Shown here: positions 9,228 through 27,403 of the stretch, piece after piece
How positions within the stretch are numbered: the first letter of the stretch is position 1
Layout of the letters: every line of letters starts with the position of its first letter
Source of the DNA: Clostridia bacterium
GTDB taxonomy: Bacteria; Bacillota; Clostridia; UMGS1883
Direction of reading: 5' to 3'
NCBI GenBank assembly: GCA_030527235.1
Contig: JAUNBL010000008.1
Span: forward strand, 1-57,521
Length of the DNA stretch: 57,521 bases
Made by a program: the position numbers and the translations under genes
Notes under the pieces: generated by a model
What the model saw: the letters and a program-made list of their open reading frames with translations, nothing else
The model's database searches: none
What the model was told of the DNA's origin: nothing

Positions 9228-12200
9228 ATCGCCCGAAAGCTTTGAAGCGTCCTTGACGATCGCCGAAACGACAGCGTTTATTGTTCCGTCGTAATATTTG
9301 TTACGCGCAAATACGGTAAAATCGTTTGCTGTCAGCGTTTTGGGAACAATTCTGAAGCTTGCGCCCTTTACCGAAATATCATAGGTTGCATTTTCGGCAA
9401 CAGTGGCGTAAATTTCGTATCTGCCCGCGCCGTCGCCCTGCTCATAATCGATATTCGGGGTAATTCCGAGCGCTTGCAGGTTTTCGCCGTTTTCCGCCGA
9501 AACGCCGTTTAAAATCTCCGCTTTTTCCGTTCCGTAGGGGTACTCGCTCGCTCCCGCCGTAAGCGTTACCGTGATGGGTTCTTTGCTAACGACAAGGGTA
9601 TAGCTTGCGTAAACGGGGGTCATGCCGGTAACATTGCTTTCCGCCAAAATGGTTGCCGTGCCTTCGCCCCTAATTGTGACCGTGCCGTCCGTGCCAACTG
9701 TCGCAACGCCCTCGTTGGAGCTTGAATAGGTGACGGTCGAGTTTTCGTTTTCGTTTGTCAGCGCGTTTGCAAACGTGCCGCTTGTCACATATTTATTCAC
9801 CATTCCGGCGGCAAAGTAGATAGGCTTTTGCTGCTGTGCGGCAGGCGTTATGGTTAGTATGCCGTAGCCGTCATAAGCGGCGGCAAGCGTTTCTGCGTCC
9901 TTGCCCTGCGTATCGGCAATATCCACATATCTGTTCGCATAGCCTTCGAAAGTGAAGGTATCGTCTATCTCCGCAGTTGCCGCCGAAGCAGCGTCCGCCT
10001 CATAGAAATACCTGCCGGGCAGAATAGGCTCTGCAATTTCATCGCCCACCGTGCCGTCGTCGTTAACCTTATAATATTTATCTCCCACAACGCCGAGATT
10101 GTAGGTGTCGCCTTCATACTCGGTGGTCGGGCGGGCATAAATCGCACTGCTGGTGTAGGTCACCTCGGTGATACCGTGGTCTATGGGCAGTATTTTACTG
10201 TCGCCCTGCTGATACGGCTGATACAACACCTCAAAGGTCGCCGCCGCAGTGCCGCCGGTGATTGTCGCCTTGTTTATGCCCGGCTTGAATTCGTCTGACG
10301 CAGACACGTTTCTTTGGGGCGTGACGGTAAGCCCGTATGTGTCAAAGTCGTCAATCGTTATATAACTTATGGTTGTTTTGTTGTTGTAGGTAATCGTTAC
10401 CATTAAGCCGTAGTAGCTTGCGGAGTCCCCCGAGCTGTAGGTGAACCCGTCCGACGGCGAGGTTATTTCTATCTTTTCGATTGCTACCTCGACAGGTATG
10501 TAGTAGTCGGCGGTGTTTATCGTGGCGTCTTTCTTCAAGGTGTATTCGGTATCATCATCTCCCGATTTTTTCAAAAGAAGCTTCGGCAGCAGACTGCTTA
10601 TATCAAGATCTTTTTTTACAACTAAGGACCGACCGATATCAGCAAAAACCATCTCGATTTGGTTTTCAAGCGTTGTCACTTTGTATTGCGAACTATTGTC
10701 TTCGTAGCTAAAGTTAAGCATTGCACCGGGTGCAAGCGCTATTTTCCCGCCGCCTTCGCTTCTGATTGAGGTTACGTTTACCATTCTGTAAAGATTGTGA
10801 AGTCCGCCCGCCTCAATCACAAGACTTGCATTGTGGAGTAAAATTTTTTGGTCTGTCGAAGCGCTCACATTGTTCAAATACACCTTTTTATTTTCGCCGT
10901 GCAGTGCAAAAAGATCAGAGCCGCTCCGTTTTAAGACAATATTCTTAAATCTTGTGTCTGCTTTTAGGCGCGGGTCGAGGACAGCCGTCCATGTTTTCCC
11001 GTTTCCGTCTATGGTGCAGGGCTTGGTCGGCATAGACAAGTTGCTGTCAGAGCTTACGTCCTTCAAAAGCGTAATTGTTGCGCCGTCTACCGAGGCCGAG
11101 CTGCTTGCGTTCACCGCCGCAATCGCTTCGGCAAGGGTCAAATGCTTTGTGGTAACGCCGCCCACGGTAACGCTTGCCACGCTTGGGTCATACGGCTCGT
11201 CAAAGATGGGGGTAAGGTCGGTGTCGGATTTGGCTTTCCAAGTGTAGAAGCTTACGTCCGCTGTTGTTTTAACCCATTCATTCAATTTTTCAACAAGCAG
11301 GGTTTCGCTGTTTGTTAATTTCATGGTGCTTTTGTTAAATGTGGCTGCAATATTTTCGTTAAACACAAACATACCACCAGCGCCGCCAATTGCGGTTGTG
11401 TTTTCAGGGTGATACAGATTGCTTGCCGTGCCGCTGTTAGTGCCTATTAAAGCGCCATAGACAGCCATGCAGACAACCGTGTCCGTGCTGTAGCAGTTTT
11501 CCACCGTCCCGTTGTCGTAGTTGTAACCCGCGATACCGCCGGCATCGGTGCCGATGGTGATAATGCCCGTGTTGTAACAGTTGTATATATCGCCGAAGTT
11601 TCGGCCTGCTATGCCGCCGCCTTGACTTATTCCCTTAACAGCAGCTTCGTTGTAACAGTTTTGTATATGACCGTTACCGACGTTTGTTCCTGCAATGCCG
11701 CCGACATAATTCCTGCCCGTGACAGAGCCGGTAACACCGAGATTTTTGATTGTGTCCATATTTACGCCGAACAAGCCCTGATCATTGGCAGAGCCGTTTA
11801 TATACAGCCCGCTTATCTCAAACATTCCGCCGTCGAAAACGCCCCTAAAGGGTGCGGCAACGCTGCCAATCGGCTCCCATGACACGCCGAGAGTTTCGCC
11901 GCAAACGGTTGACAAATCAATATCGTTCATCAGCTTAACCGTCTTGCCGTCAAAGTCGTTGCCGGCGTTTACCGCATTGCGGAAAAGCACAAGGTCGTCG
12001 GCGGTGCTGATTTCGTCGGTAAGAATGTCAAGGCTTACCGCGCTGTCCGGCATGATAAAGCTCGCCGGATTTGACAATGCGCTTGTGCCGCCGGTGAAGG
12101 TTAGCGTCTCCGCACCCGTCCACGCGCTGAAATTTCCGTCTGCCGACAAAATTGTAACCGTCTGCCCCTCGGCCGCCTGTGTGATTTCCGTCCCTGCGGC

Positions 12201-14687
12201 GTTTTTGACGGTAACGCCCACCGGCACGTTCACATCATAAGCGGTTATCGTGCCGCTCTTAAGGTACTTTCCGCTCGATGAAATTGCGTGTCCGCCGTTT
12301 CTTACAGTGAAGGGGCTGCCGTCAATTTCCGCCGCGTCTGTTCCGTCTGCGCTTGTTCCCGTTTTGACTGTAATCGCCGTATCTGCGGCGGGGGAAACCG
12401 TGAGATTGCGAATCGCACTGCCGCTGCCGTATCTGCTGGCAGCAGTAACCGTGCCGCCGGTGATTGTAACGGAGCCGGAATAATTCTTGTTATCATTGGC
12501 AGTGCCGATTCCGATGCCGTCGCCGCCGTAACCGGAGGTTCCGTTCGCTATGACTGTTCCGCCGGAAATCTCAATGGCGCCAAAGGAATAATTGTTTGCC
12601 AAATACGCCAGACCAATGCCGGGATTACTGCCATTTCCCGTGGCTGTGACTGTTCCGCCGGAAATACGGATGGTTCCTACCGATTCATATAGACCGGCTC
12701 GCGTTCCTATTCCGGCGGCATTATTTCCGTTGGCTGTTATCGTCCCGCCCTTGATGTGGAGTACGGCGCGGGAGTGTACGGCAATGCCCGCCCCTGAATA
12801 TGTGCTGCCGGCATTCAAGCTGCCGCCGCCGTCTATATTGAGGGTTCCGTGCACCCGAACAGCTTCGTTGTCCCATGAATTATTTCCGCTTGTCAGCGTG
12901 TTTCTCAGCGTATTCGCAGAGCCGTCCGCCAGCGTCAGGTTCAGCGTCGCGCCGGAGTGTACGGAAAGCGGGTGGCTGGTGGAAGCTATATTCACTCCCG
13001 CCAGCGTAATGTTGTGCTCGCCGCTTATTACGGTGATGGTGTTGGCGGCAGCGGCGCTGTTAGCGATACGTATATCGCCGGTATAGGGAATCCAATCGAG
13101 ACCTTCGTTGATTGAGTATTCTTTTACTCCGGATTCTTCTCTGAGCCGGATGGGGGCGGTAGCATAGTCATTCACATGAACTGTAAAATCCTGTGTGTAG
13201 TCCTTCGTTTGCTGCTTATCAATATCATAATCGCCGTTTTCAATGGTGGCGGTGACAATCGTCGTGCCACCTGACAGACCTCCTGTCGTTGCTCTGAACG
13301 TATTTCCGGTTATGCTCGCTCCGGTGCCGTTTTGCTCTTTCACGCTCCAAACTATGGTTTGGTTGGTAGAGGTGGAGGGCGTCACCGTGCCGCTGAGAGA
13401 AAGATCCGTGTTCACAAATGCGTCGGTGGGAACATCGGAAATATTGCCAACCGCTGTAAATATGGTTCCTCCGCTTGATGTGACTGCGCCGTTTATATCA
13501 ATGCCGCTTTTGTTGATAATCCTTCCCTTGTTGGTAAGCGTAACGCCGTCGGCAACGGTCAAGATCGTGCCCTCGCGGAGAATCAGCGTTTCCCCGTCGG
13601 CAATCGTTGAATCTTTCGTGATGGTTACGCCTCTTTTTGCTGTGATATCACCGCCGGAAATTGTGATATTGTCGCTATTGACGCTGGAGCTACCTCCGCG
13701 GCCGATGCCTGCTGGATCATTCGCAGTGTAAAAACCCGAACCGCCATTTGCGATGATTGTACCGCCGGAGATGGTAATATTGCCGCTATTGCCGCCGCTG
13801 CCATTGCCGATACCGGCGCCGTCGAGGCCACCGTTTGCGGTAATTGTACCGCCGCTAATGGTGATATTGCCGCCGCTGCCGCCGCTAGCGCCGCCGATGC
13901 CGGCACCGCAGGTGCCGCCTGTTGCAGTGACGCTGCCGCCGTTAATGGTGATATTGCCGCCGTTGCCGTTGAGCCCTCCGCCGATTCCTGCGCCTCCATT
14001 AATACCATCTGATCTGCCGATTGCAGTGACGCTGCCACCGTTAATGGTGATATTGCCGCCGCTGCCGTACGCCCCGCCGCCGATGCCGGCACCGCGGGTG
14101 CCGCCTGTTGCAGTGACGCTGCCGCCGTTAATGGTGATATTGCCGCTACCGCCGCTGTAGTCATGCCGGCCGAAGCCGCCGATACCTGCGCTGTATTGGC
14201 CTCCAGTTGCTGTAAGCTTGCCGGCATTGTCACCGGAGCCGTTGGCTGCGATATTCAAAATTGCTCCCCCCGGAACCCCCAGTCCGGCTCTTTCAAATCC
14301 GCTTTTTAGCGTATTTTCTGAGTTTTCCTCCAGCGTCAAGTTCACCGTTGCGCCGCCTGCAATAGAAAAGGCGCAAACGCTGCTATTCGCCGACACGTTG
14401 ATATTCACACCGTTCAATGTAATGCTGTGCGTGCCGCCACTTACGGTGATGGTGTTGGCGGTGGAATTAGCAACTTTTGTTTGTGTGATGATATAGCCGT
14501 TGGGATTGTGGGTTGTGACACTGTTCCCGTCTGCATCATACCCGGACAGCGTTCCGTCGCCTATGGTAATCGGTCCTTTGTCGATGTACAGCGTGGTTTC
14601 GCCCGACGCAAACGCCGCGTTTGCAGGGAGCAGAGAAATCGCCATGCAAATTGCTAACGTCATCGCTAATATTTTTTTCGTTTTCAT
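8331..14687 (-). CDS. N-terminal segment of giant secreted surface protein with glycine-rich beta-helix-like repeats (frameshifted)
   Basis: Start chosen at ATG 14687, not the upstream in-frame ATG at 14708, because GGAGG (14695-14699) sits at the right distance only for the inner start. A signal peptide covers residues 1-28. Residues 30-350 are ITVSGGTHSITLNGVNI-type repeats with NITINGGSVTATGG/GAGIGG units, suggesting a right-handed beta-helix or carbohydrate-binding fold. A second such block lies at 575-795. GLUG motifs (GGIAG..NCYN) lie near 990-1076, a Big_3-like Ig domain at 1405-1469, Big_2 at 1632-1699 and YDG/MBG modules at 1785-2118. From about residue 1820 the DNA is the outer copy of the 2.6-kb repeat. 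Translation ends at TGA 8331 in the middle of a module, so the SLH anchor is lost unless the frame is restored. Likely role: adhesion or an S-layer-associated matrix. Confidence 0.78.
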   Translation of the reverse strand: MKTKKILAMTLAICMAISLLPANAAFASGETTLYIDKGPITIGDGTLSGYDADGNSVTTHNPNGYIITQTKVANSTANTITVSGGTHSITLNGVNINVSANSSVCAFSIAGGATVNLTLEENSENTLKSGFERAGLGVPGGAILNIAANGSGDNAGKLTATGGQYSAGIGGFGRHDYSGGSGNITINGGSVTATGGTRGAGIGGGAYGSGGNITINGGSVTAIGRSDGINGGAGIGGGLNGNGGNITINGGSVTATGGTCGAGIGGASGGSGGNITISGGTITANGGLDGAGIGNGSGGNSGNITISGGTIIANGGSGFYTANDPAGIGRGGSSSVNSDNITISGGDITAKRGVTITKDSTIADGETLILREGTILTVADGVTLTNKGRIINKSGIDINGAVTSSGGTIFTAVGNISDVPTDAFVNTDLSLSGTVTPSTSTNQTIVWSVKEQNGTGASITGNTFRATTGGLSGGTTIVTATIENGDYDIDKQQTKDYTQDFTVHVNDYATAPIRLREESGVKEYSINEGLDWIPYTGDIRIANSAAAANTITVISGEHNITLAGVNIASTSHPLSVHSGATLNLTLADGSANTLRNTLTSGNNSWDNEAVRVHGTLNIDGGGSLNAGSTYSGAGIAVHSRAVLHIKGGTITANGNNAAGIGTRAGLYESVGTIRISGGTVTATGNGSNPGIGLAYLANNYSFGAIEISGGTVIANGTSGYGGDGIGIGTANDNKNYSGSVTITGGTVTAASRYGSGSAIRNLTVSPAADTAITVKTGTSADGTDAAEIDGSPFTVRNGGHAISSSGKYLKSGTITAYDVNVPVGVTVKNAAGTEITQAAEGQTVTILSADGNFSAWTGAETLTFTGGTSALSNPASFIMPDSAVSLDILTDEISTADDLVLFRNAVNAGNDFDGKTVKLMNDIDLSTVCGETLGVSWEPIGSVAAPFRGVFDGGMFEISGLYINGSANDQGLFGVNMDTIKNLGVTGSVTGRNYVGGIAGTNVGNGHIQNCYNEAAVKGISQGGGIAGRNFGDIYNCYNTGIITIGTDAGGIAGYNYDNGTVENCYSTDTVVCMAVYGALIGTNSGTASNLYHPENTTAIGGAGGMFVFNENIAATFNKSTMKLTNSETLLVEKLNEWVKTTADVSFYTWKAKSDTDLTPIFDEPYDPSVASVTVGGVTTKHLTLAEAIAAVNASSSASVDGATITLLKDVSSDSNLSMPTKPCTIDGNGKTWTAVLDPRLKADTRFKNIVLKRSGSDLFALHGENKKVYLNNVSASTDQKILLHNASLVIEAGGLHNLYRMVNVTSIRSEGGGKIALAPGAMLNFSYEDNSSQYKVTTLENQIEMVFADIGRSLVVKKDLDISSLLPKLLLKKSGDDDTEYTLKKDATINTADYYIPVEVAIEKIEITSPSDGFTYSSGDSASYYGLMVTITYNNKTTISYITIDDFDTYGLTVTPQRNVSASDEFKPGINKATITGGTAAATFEVLYQPYQQGDSKILPIDHGITEVTYTSSAIYARPTTEYEGDTYNLGVVGDKYYKVNDDGTVGDEIAEPILPGRYFYEADAASAATAEIDDTFTFEGYANRYVDIADTQGKDAETLAAAYDGYGILTITPAAQQQKPIYFAAGMVNKYVTSGTFANALTNENENSTVTYSSSNEGVATVGTDGTVTIRGEGTATILAESNVTGMTPVYASYTLVVSKEPITVTLTAGASEYPYGTEKAEILNGVSAENGENLQALGITPNIDYEQGDGAGRYEIYATVAENATYDISVKGASFRIVPKTLTANDFTVFARNKYYDGTINAVVSAIVKDASKLSGDVLTVEVTGSFDDANAGNAKRVSYAITGLGGADSGNYAIAATIQGSTSANITKAQVTLSAPSNTSYVYDGEEKSVNVVGYVAGMVFQGFSVTYDGSAALPTEQGVYDVDVTLDDPDNYEIAQNINSTLTIKSAAQDVFTIEGIPDSVSYGDTLTLSAAGAPTGSAISYQVVSGNAQLTGNSLEITGTGTVQIKATSTLANYEDKTATRTFTVGRKVLSPMVRLARLTREYDGTTDIDVAVDVSAEVLAGDNVSASATGAMATADAGTGKTVFVSGITLGGADKDKYTLSITTIHSFRSM
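13640..14210. repeat. imperfect tandem repeats encoding GG-N-ITI-GG beta-helix units
   Basis: About six units spaced 85-100 bp repeat a GCCG..AATGGTGATATTGCCG core near 13650, 13750, 13850, 13930, 14030 and 14118. Each encodes one NITINGGSVTATGG...GAGIGG turn of the giant surface protein. Unit number could vary by slippage. Confidence 0.75.
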
Positions 14688-14757
14688 TTCTTTTCCTCCA
14701 AACCGCAATTTTCCGTTTTTTCACTTTCTTTCGCGAATACAAATTCTATCTGATATA

Positions 14758-14859: not shown

Positions 14860-14897
14860 TCATTTTCTCTACAATTTTTCCAATATTTCACCATGCG

Positions 14898-14922
14898 GCT
14901 CTCACTGCCTCTCGCCGTAAAA
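14898..14922. repeat. 25-bp intergenic repeat, copy 1
   Basis: The 25 bases at 14898-14922 are identical to 15877-15901, and both are followed by GGTGA. Each copy lies 35-45 bases past the stop codon of a minus-strand gene. On the minus strand the flanks CTCAC/GTGAG can pair. Function unknown. Confidence 0.7.
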
Positions 14923-14955
14923 GGTGAGCTTATAATTGCCTATGTAAACTGCAAT

Positions 14956-15711
14956 TTAATTTGGAGCAATAATTTCCGTACTGTCCGGAGTACATTGCTT
15001 GACTGTAAAATCAAATATACTTGAAGCGTTTCTGTACAAAACGGCAACTCCGGAGGAAATCGGACGTTCCGGCGCCTCTTCCTCCATTTCATAATCAGGC
15101 AGCCCTTCATAATATGTGAAATAAACGTGATAGTCTGTCTCGGATTGCTCCACATTATCAATCCTAACATAATTAATCGGGTCTCCGTCTGCGCCGATGA
15201 TAAAATATTCTCCGTCCTTTTCCTCTATGCCCCAAAACTGGGGGGATACTTCAAAATCATATACTTTGCCTAAGGCGGATACAAACACGTTATCACATTC
15301 GCTCTTGCTCAAGCCTTGTAATTGTACGATGCGTTCATGATACAAAGACTTTCGATATGTACCATTATCGTCTATCCACCCATATCTATACACAAGATTC
15401 CATAGTATGTTTGAAGCGTGCATGGGGGCGATATCATTATTCGGTATTATGCTGATTGGCGTGGGATAATGATTGATAAGCGCAGCTAAAAGCGCTTCGA
15501 TTTTTGCGGTATCCTCCGTTGATAAATTGACTGATGTTGCTGCCTCAGGTTCAAGCTCTTGCGTGCCGTCATAGTCGGCAATGTTTCCGTATTCTGTCGC
15601 CTCTGTTTGCTGTGTCGGCGAAGCAATGTCGCTGCTTGGAGTATGCTCCGCGCTGCACGCAGACATTAAGAATGCCATCGCCAGACAAACTACGCACATT
15701 AATTTTTTCAC
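14956..15711 (-). CDS. putative lipoprotein of unknown function
   Basis: 251 residues starting at GTG 15711, chosen because AGAGGTG lies 7 bases upstream and the signal sequence follows directly. The N-terminus is KKLMCVVCLAMAFLMSAC, a lipoprotein signal with the lipobox cysteine near residue 19, followed by a Ser/Thr/Glu-rich linker. The remainder is an acidic globular domain with no catalytic motif I recognise; it contains ISIIPNNDIAPMHASNILWNLVYRYGW and a C-terminal half rich in aromatic beta strands. It is expected to sit on the outer face of the membrane. It lies downstream of the cohesin amidase gene with a 233-bp gap and its own leader element. No family can be named. Confidence 0.8.
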   Translation of the reverse strand: MKKLMCVVCLAMAFLMSACSAEHTPSSDIASPTQQTEATEYGNIADYDGTQELEPEAATSVNLSTEDTAKIEALLAALINHYPTPISIIPNNDIAPMHASNILWNLVYRYGWIDDNGTYRKSLYHERIVQLQGLSKSECDNVFVSALGKVYDFEVSPQFWGIEEKDGEYFIIGADGDPINYVRIDNVEQSETDYHVYFTYYEGLPDYEMEEEAPERPISSGVAVLYRNASSIFDFTVKQCTPDSTEIIAPN

Positions 15712-15778: not shown

Positions 15779-15815
15779 CTTTCTCAAATGTTCTCCGTTT
15801 GCGAAAAGCCTGTGA
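15779..15815 (-). promoter_or_regulatory. 37-bp conserved hairpin element upstream of the lipoprotein gene, copy 1
   Basis: It matches 21858-21894 at 36 of 37 positions in the same orientation, the only difference being 15784/21863. On the minus strand TTTCGCAAA pairs with TTTGxGAAA around a loop CGGAGAACA. Here it ends 68 bases before the GTG start. It may act as an RNA leader element or a protein site; I recognise no known riboswitch class. Confidence 0.55.
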
Positions 15816-15876
15816 AGATTCGTATGAATGCGTGGTTTCGGAGGTTTTCATTTTTCCTGCAATATTTTGCTGTGCA

Positions 15877-15901
15877 GCTCTCACTGCCTCTCGCCGTAAA
15901 A
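15877..15901. repeat. 25-bp intergenic repeat, copy 2
   Basis: Identical to 14898-14922 and likewise just beyond a minus-strand stop codon (15945). The flanking TTTTCATTTT tract upstream is also shared in a looser form. Confidence 0.7.
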
Positions 15902-15944
15902 AGGTGATTTCCTGCGGGTTAAAGAGGCTTTCGCCTTTGCCAAA

Positions 15945-18900
15945 TCAGAAATTGAACAACTTCGCTTCTGTGATAGGCCGCATAATAGAATTCCAAACAA
16001 AGATTTTTGCATATGCGGCAAGCGTAGACTTTTCAATCGCAACACTTGTTGTGTCATCCTTTGCCAATTCCTGACGTTTCATAGAAAGCAACTTACCCTC
16101 ATCATCATAGATTCCCGCATATACCGTTGCCGTTTCTGTGCAGTTCTCAACAGTTATATCGAAATACCATCGTGCGGATGTTTCTGCAAAATCAACCACT
16201 AATTCTTTTGTTGCAAAGGAGCTTGTATCAACAAAGGGTATAGCGTTTTCGCTCGCATACGTTTTAGCATATGAGTTGCTCGTTGCATATATTGTCATCT
16301 CATCGCAATTTCTGAACGCATGTGTTCCAATGCTCAAAACGCTATCTGAAATGTATGCCTGTTGAAGATTAATGCAGCCATAAAACGCTCTCGAACCGAT
16401 TGCCGTCACACCTTCTGAAATGATTATTTTCTTGACATTAAGTCTATCTGCATACCATGGGATAGCCGAAGTGGACGTATAATCTGCCATTGCTCCGATT
16501 CCGCTTACGGTAAAGACTCCGTTTGCATCCAGTTTCCACGCAATTCCGTTACTATCCACACCGCTGTCAACAATGTTTTCTGTAGCTTGCGTTATCACAA
16601 TGTTTTTTACAGCGTCCTTGCAATAAATGTATTCTCCGCTTGCTTGCCCAAGACGAAGGTTTGCAGTAGAGAATTCGGCGCTTCCTGTTTGAGTCAGTCT
16701 AAATGTTGCCGTAACTATAGTCCCGCTTGCCGGCAGGGCGTTTACGCTTGCGAATGTTACTCGAATCTGCCCTTGGGCATATGAATCATTGATTATCGGC
16801 TCAACAGAACCAAGCATATTGCCTTTTGCTGTACTAATCAATTCCATTTTGCTGCTGTCATAACACAGATTAAAGCTGCCGCCTATCGTTTCATAATCGG
16901 AGTCAACATTCACCGCTACTGTTATGGTATCGCCTAACTGGCCGTCCGAAGCATTGATTGTGATATTATCGTTGTCCGGCGAAACCGCACTCGTGTCCTT
17001 TACAATAAAATTAATGCTGATTTCATGCCCGTCAACAGCTAATGTGATTATGCTTTCTCCTGCCGAGCGGGGAGTTATACTTATTGTGTTGGCGCTTTCG
17101 TTAACAGATGCTGAAATAATTGGGTTGGAATAAGTGATAGTAATATTTTCATACAAAGCGCCCTCCGGTAAGGTTGTGTAAAAGAGCCGATACGGACGCG
17201 GTTCATTGCTTAAATCAACCTCCCAAGTTATGGTATCGTTGTTATTGTAATCTCGCCATGCAATGCCGGTCAAATCTTGACCTGCATCAGACTCCACCGT
17301 CACGGTACAGCTTGCTGAAAATCCTCCGTCCTCAGCTGTGGCAGTAATCGTTGCGCTTCCCTCTGCAACAGCGGTAATTAAGCCTGTTTCGGAATCAAAC
17401 GTGACGGCGCTGCCGCGGCAACGCCAGCTGATTGCTTTGTTTGCGGCATTGGCGGGGCTTACTGCTGCTGTTATCGTCTTTGTTTCCCCTATTTTCATAG
17501 TGAGGCTTGAATCGCTGATTGTCAGACCCGTAACAGCTACGCTGTTCTCGCTCCATATTGCATAAAGGGTGACATCAATTTTCAACATCGTAAACCGCCC
17601 ACCCGGTTGAATACTTCCTACCGTCGCATTGGAAGCATAATTCCAGCCAAGGAAGGTGTAGCCGCTTCTTGTCGGTTGTGTTGCACTGATAGTGACTGTA
17701 TTTCCGACGGCGGCAGTTATGGGCGACGGCGCACCGCTTCCGCCGTTGGCGTCAAAATTGATAGTTGATGTAGCCGTCGGCGCTTCTGCATAGATATAGA
17801 CAGGATTAATCAGCCATTTTGTCGGAGTATATATTCCGGTGTAGTTCTGATTTTGCGTTTCAACTGTCATCTTATACCATTTACCCGCTTCAAACTCGGA
17901 GTATGTATAGGTTCCGCTGCTTCCATAGGACGTTTCTCCTGCCGCAATCCTTTTACTGTACGGTTCGCTTTCGGAAGCCGGATCAGGCGTTCCGGATAGT
18001 TCTATCAGATGAAAATAGGAATTGGTTACGTTTTGGCTGGCGTTCCACGCATATGTCACTGATTCTCCTGCTGTGATTGTTTTACTTACATAACCGGAAG
18101 AGGAGGTAAGGCCTGTGGGCGATGTTACAGTCGGAGATTGCGCGCGGGTTCTCACGTAATGAATTTTCCACGAGGACTCTCCTGCGCTGTTTATAGCGCA
18201 GACGCCGATTTTATACCATGTACCGTATTCTACCGGAAGTCTTACAGAGGTTTGGGACAATTCTGTACATGAAACCCCTATTCCTTCGTTTTCGCTGCTC
18301 GGATTCGGATTAGCAGTCAGCTTTTTAACGGAATAATTATATTGCGTTGCATTATCGGAAGTCCAGTGAAAATCTATACTCGAACCATCGGTGTCAAGAT
18401 TCCAGAAGTTGGTGTATGTGGCCTGTCCCGAATAGCCCGGCAAGTCGCCGTTTGTCACGGGAAAGGTGATTGTCGGGGTTGTAGGAACACTCTGAGGAAA
18501 GTGAATCACTTTTGCCCCCATGTTACATTTTGCATCGTGTTCATAGGAGGTATTACGTCCTAATCTGTATTCACCATTGTTAAGGGAACTGTTGTGTGCA
18601 TAAAAAATGGCACTGCCGCTTTCGTTATAACCGCTACAAATAAGAATATGTGGTCTGGTGTTGTGAGAATAGCACCACTGAATAACAACATCTCCTCTGC
18701 TGAGTATATTTTCGTTTTCTGCTTTTGTAGCATAACCACTACTGTTTAATACCAAATCTTTTCCTTCTAATCCCGTGACATCTAAAATGGCGCAATAGCA
18801 GTCATATGTTGTTGTTTTGACTTCAATATCTAATCCTCCTGCCATAACACAACGAGAAACAAATTCTGCACAAAGCTGTTCGGGATTTTTATCACAATTT

Positions 18901-19097
18901 TCAGCGGCATACTTCATTGCCAATTCAACATCATAACTATATTGGCTCATCAATTTTGCATCTGTGATATCACGAGAAAAGGTTGTAATTGGTAGTGACA
19001 GCAAAATAATTATTGTCGCAAGCAGCAAAATAATAGAGTTTTGAAATGTAAAAATTGATGAACCCGTTATTCTTGGTTCTCGTAATTTAGAACGCAT
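15945..19097 (-). CDS. secreted amidase-like (CHAP/NlpC-type) protein with cohesin domain and leucine-rich repeat
   Basis: 1,050 residues. ATG 19097 has AGAGG about 10 bases upstream. A hydrophobic segment at 20-40 serves as signal or anchor. Residues 45-200 resemble the Amidase_6/CHAP-like cysteine fold, with nucleophile candidate Cys in EQLCAEFVSRCVMAGG and His in RPHILICSG. Residues 205-699 are a linker of Ig/Fn3-like, Listeria-Bacteroides and Big_2 modules encoded by DNA identical to the neighbouring gene. Residues about 706-840 read as a cohesin: GDTITVAVNV, IGGSFNLCYDSSKMELIS, GQIRVTFASVNALPASGTIVTATF. Residues 845-955 are a BspA-type LRR_5 (GVTAIGSRAFYGCINLQQ), and a C-terminal beta domain ends in KIFVWNSIMRPITEAKLFNF. 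Likely role: an extracellular cell-wall hydrolase and docking scaffold. It follows the dockerin gene by 55 bp with no terminator visible, so the two are probably cotranscribed. Confidence 0.82.
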   Translation of the reverse strand: MRSKLREPRITGSSIFTFQNSIILLLATIIILLSLPITTFSRDITDAKLMSQYSYDVELAMKYAAENCDKNPEQLCAEFVSRCVMAGGLDIEVKTTTYDCYCAILDVTGLEGKDLVLNSSGYATKAENENILSRGDVVIQWCYSHNTRPHILICSGYNESGSAIFYAHNSSLNNGEYRLGRNTSYEHDAKCNMGAKVIHFPQSVPTTPTITFPVTNGDLPGYSGQATYTNFWNLDTDGSSIDFHWTSDNATQYNYSVKKLTANPNPSSENEGIGVSCTELSQTSVRLPVEYGTWYKIGVCAINSAGESSWKIHYVRTRAQSPTVTSPTGLTSSSGYVSKTITAGESVTYAWNASQNVTNSYFHLIELSGTPDPASESEPYSKRIAAGETSYGSSGTYTYSEFEAGKWYKMTVETQNQNYTGIYTPTKWLINPVYIYAEAPTATSTINFDANGGSGAPSPITAAVGNTVTISATQPTRSGYTFLGWNYASNATVGSIQPGGRFTMLKIDVTLYAIWSENSVAVTGLTISDSSLTMKIGETKTITAAVSPANAANKAISWRCRGSAVTFDSETGLITAVAEGSATITATAEDGGFSASCTVTVESDAGQDLTGIAWRDYNNNDTITWEVDLSNEPRPYRLFYTTLPEGALYENITITYSNPIISASVNESANTISITPRSAGESIITLAVDGHEISINFIVKDTSAVSPDNDNITINASDGQLGDTITVAVNVDSDYETIGGSFNLCYDSSKMELISTAKGNMLGSVEPIINDSYAQGQIRVTFASVNALPASGTIVTATFRLTQTGSAEFSTANLRLGQASGEYIYCKDAVKNIVITQATENIVDSGVDSNGIAWKLDANGVFTVSGIGAMADYTSTSAIPWYADRLNVKKIIISEGVTAIGSRAFYGCINLQQAYISDSVLSIGTHAFRNCDEMTIYATSNSYAKTYASENAIPFVDTSSFATKELVVDFAETSARWYFDITVENCTETATVYAGIYDDEGKLLSMKRQELAKDDTTSVAIEKSTLAAYAKIFVWNSIMRPITEAKLFNF
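17000..18482. repeat. 1,483-bp perfect direct repeat inside the cohesin gene
   Basis: Matches 19371-20853 at a constant offset of 2,371. It is bounded by T/C at 16999/19370 and A/G at 18483/20854, and shadow translations in other frames are also identical. It encodes 494 residues of linker modules. Confidence 0.9.
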
Positions 19098-19152
19098 AAA
19101 TTACAAACCTCTTTTCCTAAAATGTTTTTTATACTTTTGTTTTGGGTTCTAC

Positions 19153-21768
19153 TTAAAATTCATTTATTAATCCCGCATCATATCTCAAAACAAGGTACGC
19201 ATCCATAAAATCAACTTGACCATCATTGTTCACATTGGCTGCGGATTGCTGTTCCTCTGTAAGTGTTTGCAAACCCGCATCATATCTCAAGATGAGATAT
19301 GCATCCATAAAGTCAATTTCCGAGTCGCCGTTTACATCACCTGATAGCGGCGATACTGCACTCGTGTCCCTTACAATAAAATTAATGCTGATTTCATGCC
19401 CGTCAACAGCTAATGTGATTATGCTTTCTCCTGCCGAGCGGGGAGTTATACTTATTGTGTTGGCGCTTTCGTTAACAGATGCTGAAATAATTGGGTTGGA
19501 ATAAGTGATAGTAATATTTTCATACAAAGCGCCCTCCGGTAAGGTTGTGTAAAAGAGCCGATACGGACGCGGTTCATTGCTTAAATCAACCTCCCAAGTT
19601 ATGGTATCGTTGTTATTGTAATCTCGCCATGCAATGCCGGTCAAATCTTGACCTGCATCAGACTCCACCGTCACGGTACAGCTTGCTGAAAATCCTCCGT
19701 CCTCAGCTGTGGCAGTAATCGTTGCGCTTCCCTCTGCAACAGCGGTAATTAAGCCTGTTTCGGAATCAAACGTGACGGCGCTGCCGCGGCAACGCCAGCT
19801 GATTGCTTTGTTTGCGGCATTGGCGGGGCTTACTGCTGCTGTTATCGTCTTTGTTTCCCCTATTTTCATAGTGAGGCTTGAATCGCTGATTGTCAGACCC
19901 GTAACAGCTACGCTGTTCTCGCTCCATATTGCATAAAGGGTGACATCAATTTTCAACATCGTAAACCGCCCACCCGGTTGAATACTTCCTACCGTCGCAT
20001 TGGAAGCATAATTCCAGCCAAGGAAGGTGTAGCCGCTTCTTGTCGGTTGTGTTGCACTGATAGTGACTGTATTTCCGACGGCGGCAGTTATGGGCGACGG
20101 CGCACCGCTTCCGCCGTTGGCGTCAAAATTGATAGTTGATGTAGCCGTCGGCGCTTCTGCATAGATATAGACAGGATTAATCAGCCATTTTGTCGGAGTA
20201 TATATTCCGGTGTAGTTCTGATTTTGCGTTTCAACTGTCATCTTATACCATTTACCCGCTTCAAACTCGGAGTATGTATAGGTTCCGCTGCTTCCATAGG
20301 ACGTTTCTCCTGCCGCAATCCTTTTACTGTACGGTTCGCTTTCGGAAGCCGGATCAGGCGTTCCGGATAGTTCTATCAGATGAAAATAGGAATTGGTTAC
20401 GTTTTGGCTGGCGTTCCACGCATATGTCACTGATTCTCCTGCTGTGATTGTTTTACTTACATAACCGGAAGAGGAGGTAAGGCCTGTGGGCGATGTTACA
20501 GTCGGAGATTGCGCGCGGGTTCTCACGTAATGAATTTTCCACGAGGACTCTCCTGCGCTGTTTATAGCGCAGACGCCGATTTTATACCATGTACCGTATT
20601 CTACCGGAAGTCTTACAGAGGTTTGGGACAATTCTGTACATGAAACCCCTATTCCTTCGTTTTCGCTGCTCGGATTCGGATTAGCAGTCAGCTTTTTAAC
20701 GGAATAATTATATTGCGTTGCATTATCGGAAGTCCAGTGAAAATCTATACTCGAACCATCGGTGTCAAGATTCCAGAAGTTGGTGTATGTGGCCTGTCCC
20801 GAATAGCCCGGCAAGTCGCCGTTTGTCACGGGAAAGGTGATTGTCGGGGTTGTGGGAACTGTTGCGGTTTCTGACCAGCCCAGCGATAACGCAAAGTTGT
20901 ATGTAATAGCTCTTCTGTCATTATACGAGGAACTATGGGCAAGTGCGGCTTGATGCAAATCATACAATGTTATTTTATCATAGGTTCCGACATTGTTCTT
21001 TGCAAGAGCCGCTATAGTATTTGCAGTACCTCCCCATTGATTTCTCAGGTCGGCATAATACACCAATGCCGGAGCAGAAACGATTCCAAGTGATATGCCG
21101 GCATCAATGTATGCTAATGAATCGACGGCAATCAATGCGTTTTGGGCGGCCTTTCCCTCAGCCGTGGTTAATAAAGCTGATATAGCTCGCACCTCTTCGT
21201 CACTAGCTGTTCTATTTTTATGTGTCCAATAGTCAGCTGCATTATTGGCTATTTCATAATAAAGCGTATCACCTAGAATGTTTTGTGCGTTGGTCGGATT
21301 TGCTTTGACAATCGTCTGCAAAAGAGGCAGCGCTCGTCCCGAAAAAGCATTCCACTGAAATTTCCCGATACTCATTCCATGGTTGTTATCGTTTTTATTA
21401 ACTGTTCCATAATCGCCTTCGTTTTGAATAATAATTTTCGTAGCCTCGGCAACAATCAAGTCCTTGCTTTGTGTTAGTTCGGAAACTGACATCAACGAGA
21501 CGTTGTCATCTTCGTATTGATACCCAATTTCTATTTCCGCGATTGTCTCTTTATCGCCAATTGCAGTTGTCTTAAACAGGCGGATATCACCTTCGCAGAC
21601 ATATACGGAATACACTTCTCCAGTAATGTTGCTATGCTCTGAAAGCATACTGCCACGAGATAGGCATTCATTTCCCTTTAATATTTCGCTTTCCGCGTGA
21701 CACAATGTCGAACAAACAACAACCGCCATTAATACGCATAAAACACCATAGACTCTTTTTATAACCAT
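19153..21768 (-). CDS. secreted lysozyme-like protein with C-terminal dockerin
   Basis: 871 residues from ATG 21768. The longer frame from 21831 is rejected because AGGAGG (about 21777-21784) fits the inner start and the signal peptide (VYGVLCVLMAVVVCSTLCHA) follows it. Residues about 85-300 contain NEGDYGTVNKNDNNHGMSIGKFQWN, a lysozyme-like pattern with a candidate catalytic Glu, and a helical C-lobe. Residues 305-799 are the linker shared exactly with the cohesin protein. Residues 808-871 form a type-I-like dockerin with two Ca-binding loops, DVNGDSEIDFMDAYLILRY and NVNNDGQVDFMDAYLVLRY. It should be exported and dock to a cohesin. A long leader of about 200 nt carries a conserved hairpin, and the promoter is overlapped by a palindrome. 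The exact glycosidase family is uncertain. Confidence 0.82.
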   Translation of the reverse strand: MVIKRVYGVLCVLMAVVVCSTLCHAESEILKGNECLSRGSMLSEHSNITGEVYSVYVCEGDIRLFKTTAIGDKETIAEIEIGYQYEDDNVSLMSVSELTQSKDLIVAEATKIIIQNEGDYGTVNKNDNNHGMSIGKFQWNAFSGRALPLLQTIVKANPTNAQNILGDTLYYEIANNAADYWTHKNRTASDEEVRAISALLTTAEGKAAQNALIAVDSLAYIDAGISLGIVSAPALVYYADLRNQWGGTANTIAALAKNNVGTYDKITLYDLHQAALAHSSSYNDRRAITYNFALSLGWSETATVPTTPTITFPVTNGDLPGYSGQATYTNFWNLDTDGSSIDFHWTSDNATQYNYSVKKLTANPNPSSENEGIGVSCTELSQTSVRLPVEYGTWYKIGVCAINSAGESSWKIHYVRTRAQSPTVTSPTGLTSSSGYVSKTITAGESVTYAWNASQNVTNSYFHLIELSGTPDPASESEPYSKRIAAGETSYGSSGTYTYSEFEAGKWYKMTVETQNQNYTGIYTPTKWLINPVYIYAEAPTATSTINFDANGGSGAPSPITAAVGNTVTISATQPTRSGYTFLGWNYASNATVGSIQPGGRFTMLKIDVTLYAIWSENSVAVTGLTISDSSLTMKIGETKTITAAVSPANAANKAISWRCRGSAVTFDSETGLITAVAEGSATITATAEDGGFSASCTVTVESDAGQDLTGIAWRDYNNNDTITWEVDLSNEPRPYRLFYTTLPEGALYENITITYSNPIISASVNESANTISITPRSAGESIITLAVDGHEISINFIVRDTSAVSPLSGDVNGDSEIDFMDAYLILRYDAGLQTLTEEQQSAANVNNDGQVDFMDAYLVLRYDAGLINEF
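19371..20853. repeat. 1,483-bp perfect direct repeat inside the dockerin gene
   Basis: Partner of 17000-18482, in the same orientation and the same reading frame of the linker. The absence of any visible difference across 494 codons points to recent duplication or gene conversion. Confidence 0.9.
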
Positions 21769-21857: not shown

Positions 21858-21894
21858 CTTTCGCAAATGTTCTCCGTTTGCGAAAAGCCTGTGA
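21858..21894 (-). promoter_or_regulatory. 37-bp conserved hairpin element in the dockerin-gene leader, copy 2
   Basis: 36/37 identical to 15779-15815. Here the stem is complete: CTTTTCGCAAA faces TTTGCGAAAGG around the 9-base loop CGGAGAACA. It lies 90 bases before the start codon and inside the predicted transcript. No T-run follows, so it is not a terminator. Confidence 0.55.
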
Positions 21895-22205: not shown

Positions 22206-23555
22206 TCATACATTAAGGTATTCTTTTATGTTGTCATGGCAAATGCCGCGAATAATTGTACCAAGAGCCGCTTCGTCGCGCGGATACTCACCTGCATCCA
22301 CCCATCCACCGACAACAGAGCACAAGATACGCCTGAAATATTCATGCCGCGTGTAGGATACAAAGCTTCTGCTATCTGTAAGCATGCCTATAAAATCACC
22401 CAAAACTCCCATACTCGCCAAACAGCGCAGCTGTTCTTCCATTCCGTCGCGATGGTCGCAAAACCACCACGCGCTTCCAAACTGAATTTTGCCGCGAACG
22501 CCACTGTTTTGGAAGTTGCCTGCCATGGACGCAAGAGTAGCATTATCCTTTGGATTCAGGCAGTAAAGCACAGTTTTAGGGAGTGAGTCTTCTTTTTCAA
22601 GGCTATCCAAAAGCGCAGACAGCGAGGCGGCTATGCACCCATCGCTCAAAGAATCAAAACCGCTGTCCGGCCCCAAACGGGCGAACATGCGTGAGTTATT
22701 ATTGCGCATGGCCCCGATATGCAGCTGCATTGCCATGGCGTGTTGTGAATACTCCTTTGCGCAAAATCTGAAAACGGCCGTCTTGAAAATCTCCTCCTCC
22801 AGTGCGCTGATTTGCTCGCCGCGGCGTCTTTTAGCGAAAACCGCCTCTGCGTTTCCGCATGCAAAGGGGATTTTTTCAAACGAATGGTCCGACAGCACAC
22901 AGCCCGCCGCCGCAAAGTATGCTATACGCTCGGCGAGGCGTTCTTCCAATTGCGCAAAGGTCGTAACGTTAAGCTGCTCCATATAATCCCAAAAATCGTC
23001 CTTTTCAATCGCCATGGCGCGGTCGGGTCTAAACGTGGGCAGCACGCGCAGCTTTGGGCTCTGCAATACTCTATGGCATTGCAAATCTTCCGTAGGGTCG
23101 TTCGTAGTGCATACAAGCTCTACTCCGGAGTTCTCTATAAACTCGCGCGCACCGCAGAGCTTGTCATTCACACGCTCGTATATTTCGTCCGCCGTTTTCT
23201 CCGTGAGCATTTCCTCTATACCAAAATAGCGGTAAAGCTCCAAATGCGTCCAATGGTATATCGGGTTCCCCACGGCGTAAGGCAGCGTTCTGGCAAACGC
23301 GCGCCATTTCTCACGCCCCGGCGCGTCTCCTGTTATGAATCTTTCTTCCACTCCGTGCGCGCGCATGAGCCGCCACTTATAATGGTCTCCTGACAAAAAC
23401 AACTCGGAGGCGTCCTCAAAACGGTGGTTTTCTGCTATGAGCGCAGCATCGAGATGGCAGTGGTAGTCTATGATTTTGCAATTCTTTGCATAAGTATGGT
23501 ACAAATGCCGTGCGCAGGGGGTTTTGAGCATAAAGTCATCATTTATAAAAGTCAT
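22206..23555 (-). CDS. uxaC: uronate (glucuronate/galacturonate) isomerase
   Basis: 449 residues, close to the usual family size of about 470. It interconverts D-glucuronate and fructuronate, or D-galacturonate and tagaturonate, in the cytoplasm. Family hallmarks are the metal-site motif IIDYHCHLDAALIAEN near residue 30, the HYKWRLMRAHGV block, HWTHLELYRYFGI, and late NNNSRMF and GSAWWFCDHRDGMEEQ blocks. GGGAGG precedes ATG 23555. The start overlaps the preceding dehydrogenase stop by 4 bases (ATGA), so translation is coupled. It is the last gene of a five-gene operon. None of the usual partners (uxaA, uxaB, uxuA, kdgK, kdgA) lies in this window. Confidence 0.95.
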   Translation of the reverse strand: MTFINDDFMLKTPCARHLYHTYAKNCKIIDYHCHLDAALIAENHRFEDASELFLSGDHYKWRLMRAHGVEERFITGDAPGREKWRAFARTLPYAVGNPIYHWTHLELYRYFGIEEMLTEKTADEIYERVNDKLCGAREFIENSGVELVCTTNDPTEDLQCHRVLQSPKLRVLPTFRPDRAMAIEKDDFWDYMEQLNVTTFAQLEERLAERIAYFAAAGCVLSDHSFEKIPFACGNAEAVFAKRRRGEQISALEEEIFKTAVFRFCAKEYSQHAMAMQLHIGAMRNNNSRMFARLGPDSGFDSLSDGCIAASLSALLDSLEKEDSLPKTVLYCLNPKDNATLASMAGNFQNSGVRGKIQFGSAWWFCDHRDGMEEQLRCLASMGVLGDFIGMLTDSRSFVSYTRHEYFRRILCSVVGGWVDAGEYPRDEAALGTIIRGICHDNIKEYLNV

Positions 23556-24538
23556 ATCCTTTTTCCTCCCGGTGCAAGCAAGATACGTTCGCCTGCGCTT
23601 TTATACAAGGCGTGCGTAAGCTCTGTCACGCGCCGCGCGTCCTCTAAAGATACAAAGTGTCCGTTGCCTGTTTCCAAATATGTGTAATAGTCCTCAAACA
23701 GTTTGTTGTGCCCGCTGCCCCAATAGGGTTTGCCAAGCACGCCCGCCGTATCCTTTGCCAACACACTCGCTTCGCCTTTGCAAAGACGATACAGCGCGCC
23801 GTCACTGTACCGATACAGCGCGTCGTCCGTTTCAATCTCAAGGCGCATGGGTGAATTGGTCGGGTAGGTATTCGTGGCAAAAAACACCCCCCTTGCTCCG
23901 CTTTCAAACTCTATCAGCGCATCACAGGTGTCCTCCACTTCAATCGAAGGCATGGACTTATTGGAAATGGTGGCGCAAACGCTTGCCGCCTCGCCTCCGA
24001 AAAGGAGCATTAGGTCTAAAAGATGCACTGCCTGATTGATAACAACGCCGCCGCCCTCTGTTGCCCATTTCCCACGCCATGGCGCGCTCGCGTAATACTC
24101 CGCGTCGCGTTTCCACGTAAGCGCTGCAAAAATCGAACGCACGTCCGGACAAATCGAGAGCAGCTTTTCCACACAAGGGTTATATCGATTTTGCAATACG
24201 CAGCAAACGTCTTTCGCTCCCTTTGCGGCGCGAAGCTGACGCCACTGCGCCTCGTCTATCGCCGCGGGTTTCTCAAGTACAACCTTCTTTCCCGCCTCAA
24301 GCGCTGCGAGCGCCATCGTCACATGCAAAAAGTGCGGCGTGCAGATATGTACAACGTCTACCTCTCCGTCTCTGAGCGCGTCCGCATAATCGTTATACAC
24401 CTTTTTGCCGCACAGCGCCGCTGTTTTCGCCTCATCAATATCGCACACGGCAACAAGACGCGCATATGGCGCGTCTTCAAGCAGCTGTGCGTGTACGCTG
24501 CCAATATTCCCGTATCCGACAACACAAGCGTTTTTCAT
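23552..24538 (-). CDS. Gfo/Idh/MocA family NAD(P)-dependent sugar oxidoreductase
   Basis: 328 residues. The N-terminal Rossmann fold opens VVGYGNIGSVHAQLLED; the family EKPAAID motif lies near residue 90 and TEGGGVVINQAVHLLDLMLLFGG, with the catalytic His/Asp, near 165. Such enzymes oxidise or reduce a sugar hydroxyl/ketone. Here it lies between a TIM-barrel isomerase and uxaC, with ATGA overlaps on both sides. It may replace the missing tagaturonate/fructuronate reductase, or act on C3 of a glycoside. The substrate cannot be read from sequence. Paralogous to the gene at 25287-26438 but clearly diverged. Confidence 0.88.
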   Translation of the reverse strand: MKNACVVGYGNIGSVHAQLLEDAPYARLVAVCDIDEAKTAALCGKKVYNDYADALRDGEVDVVHICTPHFLHVTMALAALEAGKKVVLEKPAAIDEAQWRQLRAAKGAKDVCCVLQNRYNPCVEKLLSICPDVRSIFAALTWKRDAEYYASAPWRGKWATEGGGVVINQAVHLLDLMLLFGGEAASVCATISNKSMPSIEVEDTCDALIEFESGARGVFFATNTYPTNSPMRLEIETDDALYRYSDGALYRLCKGEASVLAKDTAGVLGKPYWGSGHNKLFEDYYTYLETGNGHFVSLEDARRVTELTHALYKSAGERILLAPGGKRI

Positions 24539-25287
24539 ACATATCCTCTTTGTGTAAGAAAATTATAACTCGTCTTAAGCGCGTCAATCGGGTCGCCGTC
24601 ACAGTAATCCTGCTCCACCATGGCATACTCCGCACCTGACATGTCCGCAGCAGCCAGAATTTCGTCCCAGTTAAGGTTTCCGCTGCCAACAGGCGCCATA
24701 GCGGTTTGAAAGCCCTTTATTTTCAGGTCCTTATAATGCAGCACAACCGCTCTTTTGCCGAGCCTTTCTATCATCTTGGCAGGGTCCTGCGCCGCGAACG
24801 CAAGCCAGTACACGTCCAAAATGAACTTCATATCTGTATTTTCAATGAGGTAGTCCATAATATATTTGCCGTCTAAGCGCATGAATTCAAACGCATGGTT
24901 ATGGTATGCAAAACACATTTTGCGCTTTGAAAGCTCCTGCGTGGCACGGTTTGCAACTTTTATAAACTCATTTAGACTCTGAGAGCTGTTCCCCATCTCC
25001 TCTGGCATCATGCCCAGTCCGGCAATCGAGCACGAGAGCGTGCTCTGGTATTCGATTACTGCGTCTATATTATCTCTGTAATCAGCGTAGGGTCTGTGCG
25101 TGCAAATCGGCTCCAGCGAATACTTATCAAGTATCTCACGAACGTCCGCCGCACCCACGCCCACGCCGGAGACCTGTACGCATTTATAACCTATTTTCGC
25201 AATTTTGCCAAGCGTGGCATCAAGGTCCGCCGTACTTTTGCAAAGGTCGCGCACGGTAAAAAGCTGCGCTCCTATCCTCTTATCCAT
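24535..25287 (-). CDS. sugar phosphate isomerase/epimerase family TIM-barrel protein
   Basis: 250 residues of the AP_endonuc_2/xylose-isomerase-like TIM-barrel fold. It starts RIGAQLFTVRDLC. Metal-site motifs are CFAYHNHAFEF, FILDVYWLAF, VVLHYKDLK and AMVEQDYCDG, supplying Glu/Asp/His/Glu ligands. Members next to Gfo/Idh enzymes include sugar isomerases, C4 epimerases of 3-ketosugars (YcjR-like) and 3-ketoglycoside-cleaving enzymes. It overlaps both neighbours (ATGA downstream, TAATG upstream). Activity unknown, family sure. Confidence 0.87.
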   Translation of the reverse strand: MDKRIGAQLFTVRDLCKSTADLDATLGKIAKIGYKCVQVSGVGVGAADVREILDKYSLEPICTHRPYADYRDNIDAVIEYQSTLSCSIAGLGMMPEEMGNSSQSLNEFIKVANRATQELSKRKMCFAYHNHAFEFMRLDGKYIMDYLIENTDMKFILDVYWLAFAAQDPAKMIERLGKRAVVLHYKDLKIKGFQTAMAPVGSGNLNWDEILAAADMSGAEYAMVEQDYCDGDPIDALKTSYNFLTQRGYV

Positions 25288-26438
25288 TAATACGTCCCCT
25301 CCGTTTCGGCAGTCTTTTGGACAACCTTTTTAACTACCGTTGAATTCTTAATTTTTTCATTGAGTATATCGTAGAACTCGTCGTGCGGGAAGTTTTTCAC
25401 GTCCGCCCAGTTTCCCGTCCATGCAGAATAGTGTATGGCGTTTGAAATAGTAAGCCCGAAAACGCCTTCTTCTCCCGGCGCCAGCAGCGGTGTTCCCTTT
25501 TCTATCGCGCGCACAAAGTTGCGCAGAATACCGGCGTGCTGCTCGTTCTTTCCATGTACAGGAATTTCACAGCGCCATACATCGGGATTTCCGAAAACGC
25601 CTTCAAATATACGGTTAAACTCTCGCTCTGAAATTTCGTTGCGGTCAAACATCAGCCTGCCGCCCTCTACCACAACGCGCCCCATGTCACACGCAACCTC
25701 AAGACGATTGGTTCCCGGCGTTTCGCCGGTGGAGGTTATATATACGCCTGTGAGTCCGCTTTCATACTGCATAAACGCGGTCACGTCATCCTCAACCTCT
25801 ATATCATAGTATTTCCCAAACGACACCTGCGACAATATTCTGTCGGGCATCCCAAACATCCACTGCCACAAATCAAGCTGGTGCGGGTTCTGGTTAATAA
25901 GCGCGCCGCCGCCCTCTGTTTTCCAGGTCGAGCGCCATGTGCAGCTATCGTGGTACGACTGGGGTCGGTACCAATCCGTTATTGTCCACTGCACACGCTT
26001 CAGTTCGCCCAAAAGGCCCTTTTGAATCATGTCTCTGAGCTTTTGATATATCGGATTCGTGCGCTGATTATACATTATGCCGAATACTCTGTCCGTCTTT
26101 TTTGCGGCAGCATTCATCTCAAGCACCTGCTTAGTGTACACTCCCGCAGGCTTTTCCGTAAGCACGTGCAAATTATTTTCAAACGCTTTAATCGCAATCG
26201 GCGGATGCTCATAGTGCGGTACGGCTATTATAACGGCGTCCACACACTTCGCGGCAAAAAGTTCCTCCGCACTTTCAAATATTGCCGCATCGGGATAAAG
26301 CGCAGCGGCCTTTTCACGGCGCCAAGGCGCAATGTCGCACACGGCGGCAAGTGCGCCTCCATCAGCCCGCCCCTTCGCAAGAGTCTCCGCATGTGCCGTA
26401 CCCATGTTGCCAAAGCCGATAATTCCAAATCTAACCAT
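25287..26438 (-). CDS. Gfo/Idh/MocA family oxidoreductase, second copy
   Basis: 383 residues. Dinucleotide motif FGIIGFGNMGTAHAETLA at the N-terminus, LTEKPAGVY near 95, and the catalytic block TEGGGALINQNPHQLDLWQWMFG near 170. The stop overlaps the next start by one base (TAATG), and its start overlaps the previous gene by 8 bases. Longer than its paralogue at 23552, with an extra lysine-rich C-terminal tail. It probably oxidises a sugar or uronate moiety using NAD(P) and acts in concert with the flanking TIM-barrel proteins. Confidence 0.88.
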   Translation of the reverse strand: MVRFGIIGFGNMGTAHAETLAKGRADGGALAAVCDIAPWRREKAAALYPDAAIFESAEELFAAKCVDAVIIAVPHYEHPPIAIKAFENNLHVLTEKPAGVYTKQVLEMNAAAKKTDRVFGIMYNQRTNPIYQKLRDMIQKGLLGELKRVQWTITDWYRPQSYHDSCTWRSTWKTEGGGALINQNPHQLDLWQWMFGMPDRILSQVSFGKYYDIEVEDDVTAFMQYESGLTGVYITSTGETPGTNRLEVACDMGRVVVEGGRLMFDRNEISEREFNRIFEGVFGNPDVWRCEIPVHGKNEQHAGILRNFVRAIEKGTPLLAPGEEGVFGLTISNAIHYSAWTGNWADVKNFPHDEFYDILNEKIKNSTVVKKVVQKTAETEGTY

Positions 26439-27291: not shown

Positions 27292-27340
27292 TACCTCCCT
27301 TTCGCCAGTTTAGCATAGTTTTGGTATAACTTCTCGTACT

Positions 27341-27371
27341 ATATTGACTTAGCTATTGCGTATATTGACTT
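27341..27371. promoter_or_regulatory. AraC-type operator: two 10-bp direct repeats 21 bp apart
   Basis: ATATTGACTT occurs at 27341-27350 and again at 27362-27371, in the same orientation and exactly two helical turns apart, between the divergent uronate operon and the AraC gene. That geometry is classic for the two HTH motifs of AraC-family activators. The proximal half-site would abut the -35 region of a minus-strand promoter whose -10 could be TATGCT (27317-27312). The minus-strand promoter lacks a good -35, consistent with activator dependence. Confidence 0.6.
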
Positions 27372-27403
27372 TTTGTGTTAATATACTTGTGAGGCGATGC
27401 ACG

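Follow-up and report, generated by a model that had tools for sequence, protein, structure and literature searches.

Two adjoining genes in the 57,521-nucleotide stretch of Clostridia DNA analysed here (the window), which we call A and B, probably encode a secreted two-enzyme muralytic complex held together by a cohesin and a dockerin and derived from a duplicated chassis. According to our model, A would be an NlpC/P60-type amidase or endopeptidase that cuts stem peptides, and B a lysozyme-superfamily enzyme that cuts glycan strands. The cohesin of A would bind the dockerin of B in a calcium-dependent, type I-like manner, giving a two-headed complex, while the stalk (FN3/List_Bact/Ig), together with the leucine-rich repeats (LRR) and tail of A, would position this complex on a surface or target. 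From the sequence we infer the binding of A to B, peptidoglycan as substrate, synergy between the two activities and surface placement. The core of the original prediction, a small secreted lytic complex, remains the reading with the most support, and the architectures found in relatives strengthen it; its picture of two independent hydrolases is given up.

An adjacent cohesin and dockerin

The two ORFs were found where the original prediction had placed them, both on the minus strand, with B upstream of A and a gap of 55 bp between them (19097/19153) (Table 1). For B, the start at 21768 appears preferable to that of the longest ORF (21831, 892 residues), since AAAGGAGGAG lies just 5' of it and a signal-peptide-like sequence follows it. 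Both products are presumably secreted, their signal peptides having been judged by eye. A riboswitch 5' of B was rejected, as there was no Rfam match at the gathering score, and scans for promoters and terminators gave no signal above chance level.

Table 1. Features of the A/B locus, in window positions
Feature	Position	Strand	Details
Gene B: predicted secreted protein; lysozyme-superfamily head, stalk, C-terminal dockerin	19153..21768	-	about 871 aa (start at 21768)
Gene A: predicted secreted protein; Amidase_6/NlpC-P60-like head, stalk, cohesin, LRR, tail	15945..19097	-	1050 aa
B head, lysozyme-superfamily, GH46-like predicted fold	20860..21471	-	AlphaFold2 pLDDT 86.9; Foldseek
B copy of 1,512-bp stalk block	19348..20859	-	FN3-like, List_Bact/Flg_new, Big_2, Ig-like (Pfam)
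B dockerin type I, two calcium loops	19180..19341	-	Pfam E 5.9e-9; genome search E 3.7e-10
A head, Amidase_6/NlpC-P60-like	18489..18992	-	Cys and His kept with Amidase_6 homologues
A copy of 1,512-bp stalk block	16977..18488	-	99.7% identical to B copy
A cohesin domain	16662..16964	-	Pfam PF00963, E 3.4e-10
A BspA-type LRR stretch	16269..16439	-	PF13306, E 1.9e-10; PDB 4h09
A C-terminal tail domain	15948..16244	-	HMM from relatives' Coh-Doc-Coh tails, E 5.5e-7 at Z=1000
37-bp leader element 5' of B	21858..21894	-	self-BLAST; 97% copy at 15779-15815, 5' of gene 14956-15711

Profile searches bore out the cohesin proposed for A and the dockerin proposed for B, both above the curated Pfam cut-offs. 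In A, PF00963 covers residues 712-811 (40.7 bits against 24.1); in B, counted on the longest ORF (892 residues), Dockerin_1 (PF00404) covers residues 831-884 (36.4 bits against 22.9). In PDB sequence searches, the matches were modest: the cohesin resembled scaffoldin cohesins of the C. cellulolyticum type (2vn5, 1g1k; E about 0.002), and the dockerin resembled the Xyn10B-type dockerin (2ccl, 1ohz; E 0.002-0.005). The two loops of the dockerin are near-symmetric, with 17 of 24 residues identical, canonical calcium ligands intact and the same putative recognition residues (FM/LR) in both. Such symmetry of a two-loop dockerin is expected for dual-mode binding.

The host genome (2.09 Mb, 82% complete) is the only one of its genus in our comparison. 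A profile search of the whole of it returned a single Pfam cohesin, that of A, and two Pfam dockerins. By a back-of-envelope estimate (2 dockerins x 2 neighbour slots / ~1,900 genes), the chance that the cohesin gene would adjoin a dockerin gene is ~0.2%, and the neighbourhood of A and B is therefore unlikely to be accidental. Among the ORFs of the window no further cohesin or dockerin was found, as had been claimed. At L004 1152-3501 on contig C2, the gene for the genome's only other dockerin protein precedes one whose beginning resembles a cohesin by eye. A second dockerin-cohesin pair at this place is possible and is not claimed: the Pfam score was 13.1 bits (cut-off 24.1; E 0.11), and a comparison with the cohesins of the same GTDB family by hhalign was negative. 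The second of these genes ends in a tail domain of the A type, by a weak match, and has nothing else in common with A.

Several features of the surroundings were recorded. Just downstream of A, 14956-15711 (minus strand) encodes a predicted small, lipoprotein-like secreted protein without a Pfam family, and a 48-bp element occurs in two copies (14881-14927 and 15860-15907). Further on, 437-14708 (minus strand) encodes a giant MBG/YDG/Big_2 surface protein with C-terminal SLH domains, in three ORFs with GTGA overlaps. A 2.8-kb repeat occurs here in two copies (98.3% identical), and each copy is broken at the corresponding position by an identical -1 frame change, for which a degraded gene, an assembly error or recoding may be the cause. 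On the other side, A/B adjoins a sugar-acid utilisation cluster (22206-29418) with no evident link to it, which holds a glucuronate isomerase, GFO/IDH/MocA oxidoreductases, sugar isomerase-like TIM barrels, an AraC regulator and a GHMP kinase.

A shared stalk with different heads

The stalk block shared by A and B, overlooked in the original prediction, differs between the copies at four sites, none more than 25 bp from an end of the block, and has no third copy elsewhere in the genome. It starts just past the catalytic domain and ends just short of the cohesin or dockerin, so that A and B amount to one stalk whose head and docking end differ between the two proteins. Duplication of a chassis with exchange of its head and docking end would best explain this arrangement. 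Therefore, of the two separate hydrolases initially described, the adjacency holds and the independence does not. The LRR and Ig-like arrays named in the same description are likewise only partly upheld: the modules are there, but each protein has one Big_2 with FN3-like and List_Bact modules in place of an extended series of Ig domains, and LRR occurs only in A, as a single short BspA-type stretch.

A misassembly of the 1.5-kb repeat was considered and judged unlikely by reasoning, because the contig follows the sole path through a single loop (B-head/repeat/dockerin and A-head/repeat/cohesin) and the two copies differ at four sites. The G+C content is 36.8% in the A head, 42% in the B head and 39% in the dockerin segment, against 47.6% in the stalk and 50.3% in the window. 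AT-rich heads and docking ends would be consistent with their acquisition from elsewhere, without proving it.

Neither head has a direct Pfam match. For A, the Amidase_6 assignment comes only from its homologues, which in two other Clostridia genomes are Amidase_6 by Pfam; C41 and H115 are invariant in the alignment with them. The AlphaFold2 model of this head is of low confidence (mean pLDDT 57) and was given a supporting role only. Its 13 best PDB matches, to be read with that low confidence in mind, were all to the peptidoglycan amidase Tse1/Tae1 (best E 1.6e-3), one of these entries being labelled by the locus name PA1844.

The model of the B head matched GH46 chitosanases best (E 3.3e-4, TM 0.57-0.60 with Foldseek). 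GH46 enzymes are chitosan cutters. The candidate catalytic residues of the B head, E28 and D38, are invariant in eight homologues; they lie about 10 residues apart, which differs from the spacing of 18 in GH46. The nearest homologue found (52% identical) comes from a viral contig, where its neighbour is an Amidase_3 gene that has the same GW-type repeats, a setting that resembles an endolysin-like cassette, and other homologues are fused to peptidoglycan-binding (PG_binding_1) and Rv2525c-like domains. Considering the relation of the A head to Amidase_6 and Tse1, together with the endolysin-like cassette and the peptidoglycan-binding fusions of the B-head homologues, we infer that peptidoglycan is the likeliest substrate of both heads.

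In a class sample of 391 Clostridia genomes, the A head had matches in three other genomes and the B head in four, and among 28 genomes of the order both heads were confined to that of the host. A phage origin of the pair was rejected, since neither head had a match in phage genomes and the one viral-contig homologue concerned the B head only.

Docking proteins of related Clostridia and alternative readings

Within the same GTDB family, cohesins were found in 12 of 21 genomes and dockerins in 13. The common form is a single chain of cohesin, dockerin and cohesin (Coh-Doc-Coh) followed by a tail of about 90 residues, which A also carries. The heads that precede it include CHAP (L062, L079), M23 (L063) and, in a second L063 gene, an NlpC-like domain recognised by eye; other Coh-Doc-Coh proteins bear LRR or List_Bact arrays. 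Further cohesin or dockerin proteins include a papain-type peptidase (L084), glucosaminidases (L065, L067), M60 (L064, L069) and S8 (L078) peptidases, and no cellulase or hemicellulase domain was found among the cohesin and dockerin proteins scanned in the family. The M23 and NlpC-like genes of L063 have 2,916 bp in common at 95.5% and thus appear to display the same change of head on a duplicated chassis as A and B.

Genes of this kind also stand in tandem. In L112, from another family, an Amidase_6-RicinB-Coh-Doc gene is followed 4 bp on by a Coh-tail gene, and L091 has Coh-SLH, CHAP...Coh-Doc and Coh...FIVAR-Doc genes in a row; Coh-SLH proteins occur in L078 and L082 as well. In L078 (876-7535), the Coh-SLH gene, with a weakly matching cohesin, and a subtilase gene ending in a dockerin are separated by 4 bp and possibly encode a surface-anchored two-gene protease. 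In an Oscillospiraceae MAG (L097, 4618-12630), cohesin and dockerin genes alternate and GH16 heads sit on the dockerin ones, which indicates that the tandem arrangement is not confined to wall hydrolases. Across the class, cohesins and dockerins occur together in 148 of 391 genomes (Fisher p 4e-49), suggesting that low-copy sets are common.

The relatives that bear names are uncultured Clostridia MAGs, and isolate names among them (for example Lapin and Sheep_Rectum) suggest rabbit and sheep gut. Since their proteins bear both module types, they could form chains or mixed complexes. The cohesin of A is unlike those of their Coh-Doc-Coh proteins and the recognition residues of B also differ from theirs; consequently, what the relatives lend support to is a system of this kind and not the exact binding of A to B.

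This leaves room for A and B to dock mainly elsewhere, B to a surface-anchored cohesin and the cohesin of A to another dockerin protein. The Coh-SLH proteins of L078, L082 and L091 would be anchors of this sort, a second dockerin protein is present in the host genome, and an anchor could be missing from an assembly that is 82% complete. However, no second Pfam cohesin was found in the genome and the sole one adjoins a dockerin gene, and we consider such other partners unlikely. Alternatively, the complex may be real and its substrate another, namely polymers of the host or its diet; B would then be a glycan hydrolase, GH46-like of the chitosanase type or other, and A a peptidase with a papain fold. 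We regard this as improbable: the kinship of the A head with Amidase_6 and Tse1, the endolysin-like cassette around the closest homologue of B and the peptidoglycan-binding domains of others weigh against it, even though chitosanases are the best fold matches of B and papain, subtilase and M60 heads accompany cohesins or dockerins in relatives.

Finally, cohesin and dockerin might have come to lie side by side through domain shuffling in a recombination-prone region, without functional pairing. The near-identity of the two stalk copies and the 2.8-kb repeat nearby point to recent recombination, and the heads and docking ends are richer in AT than the window. Nevertheless, both frames are open, the catalytic and calcium residues are intact, and cohesins or dockerins beside wall-hydrolase heads recur in independent loci, which makes mere shuffling very improbable in our view. 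We favour the two-enzyme muralytic complex.

Comparison with known docking systems

Cohesin-dockerin assembly is known mainly from the breakdown of plant fibre, starch and mucin. A/B is not a cellulosome: with one Pfam cohesin in the 82%-complete genome no multi-cohesin scaffoldin was found there, and neither dockerin protein of the genome carries a plant-polysaccharide enzyme. Neighbouring cohesin and dockerin genes outside a cellulosome are also present in an archaeon, Archaeoglobus fulgidus (AF2375/AF2376); these genes are not known to have wall-hydrolase heads.

The nearest single protein to A is ScaK of Ruminococcus champanellensis, a wall-cutting enzyme with a single cohesin of its own, as A would be, and its lysozyme activity was reportedly described by Morais in 2016. 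ScaK combines a GH25 lysozyme with one cohesin and no dockerin (PMC9210761, PMC6780208). Unlike A/B, it is part of a cellulosome and has a GH25 head, and these two papers describe no adjoining gene for a wall hydrolase that shares its stalk and bears a dockerin.

The original prediction had described the pairing as established for plant-polysaccharide cellulosomes; cases outside these are already documented (PMC12997984, PMC9210761, PMC6780208, PMC3573020), among them mucinolysomes and the glycosidase pairs of Clostridium perfringens (PMC12997984). In the latter, NagJ, NanJ and GH20 pair with NagH, GH95 and GH2 (PMC12997984), and cohesin and dockerin sit, as in A/B, on separate catalytic proteins with no scaffoldin. 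However, their heads act on host glycans and their pairing is experimental, whereas that of A and B is predicted. RflaF_05439 of Ruminococcus flavefaciens has two NlpC/P60 modules and an X-dockerin (PMC3573020), and likewise brings NlpC/P60-type modules into a docking system. There, the modules are delivered by a dockerin to the cell-surface cohesin ScaE of a large cellulosome, while in A the NlpC-type head sits with the cohesin. Amy4 of Ruminococcus bromii, an amylase with a cohesin and a dockerin (PMC5814915), resembles the Coh-Doc-Coh relatives in bearing both modules on one enzyme and in being able to self-associate, and differs from A/B in its starch substrate and in that the A/B modules are split over two genes.

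In the open-access literature, with most subscription journals outside the search, we found no description of a wall-hydrolase pair with matching halves on a duplicated chassis, nor of Coh-Doc-Coh wall hydrolases spread across a whole family. We tentatively propose, as a possibility that extends beyond this locus, that gut Clostridia dock peptidoglycan hydrolases by means of a dedicated system separate from the cellulosome. The exchangeable-head chassis of this system (stalk, cohesin or dockerin, tail) would duplicate by recombination and gain wall-cutting heads, some of them of phage-endolysin type, and the resulting multi-activity muralytic complexes may act against neighbours or on the cell's own wall.

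Altogether, these findings suggest that cellulosome-style docking also serves the breakdown of bacterial cell walls. If this is true, cohesin-dockerin assembly would also organise enzymes that cut the bacterial wall, and the A/B genes would record an evolutionary route by which a stalk was duplicated, its head changed, and socket and plug split between the copies. The pair would also offer a minimal two-protein test case in which lysis by a glycan-cutter and a peptide-cutter can be compared when docked and when apart.
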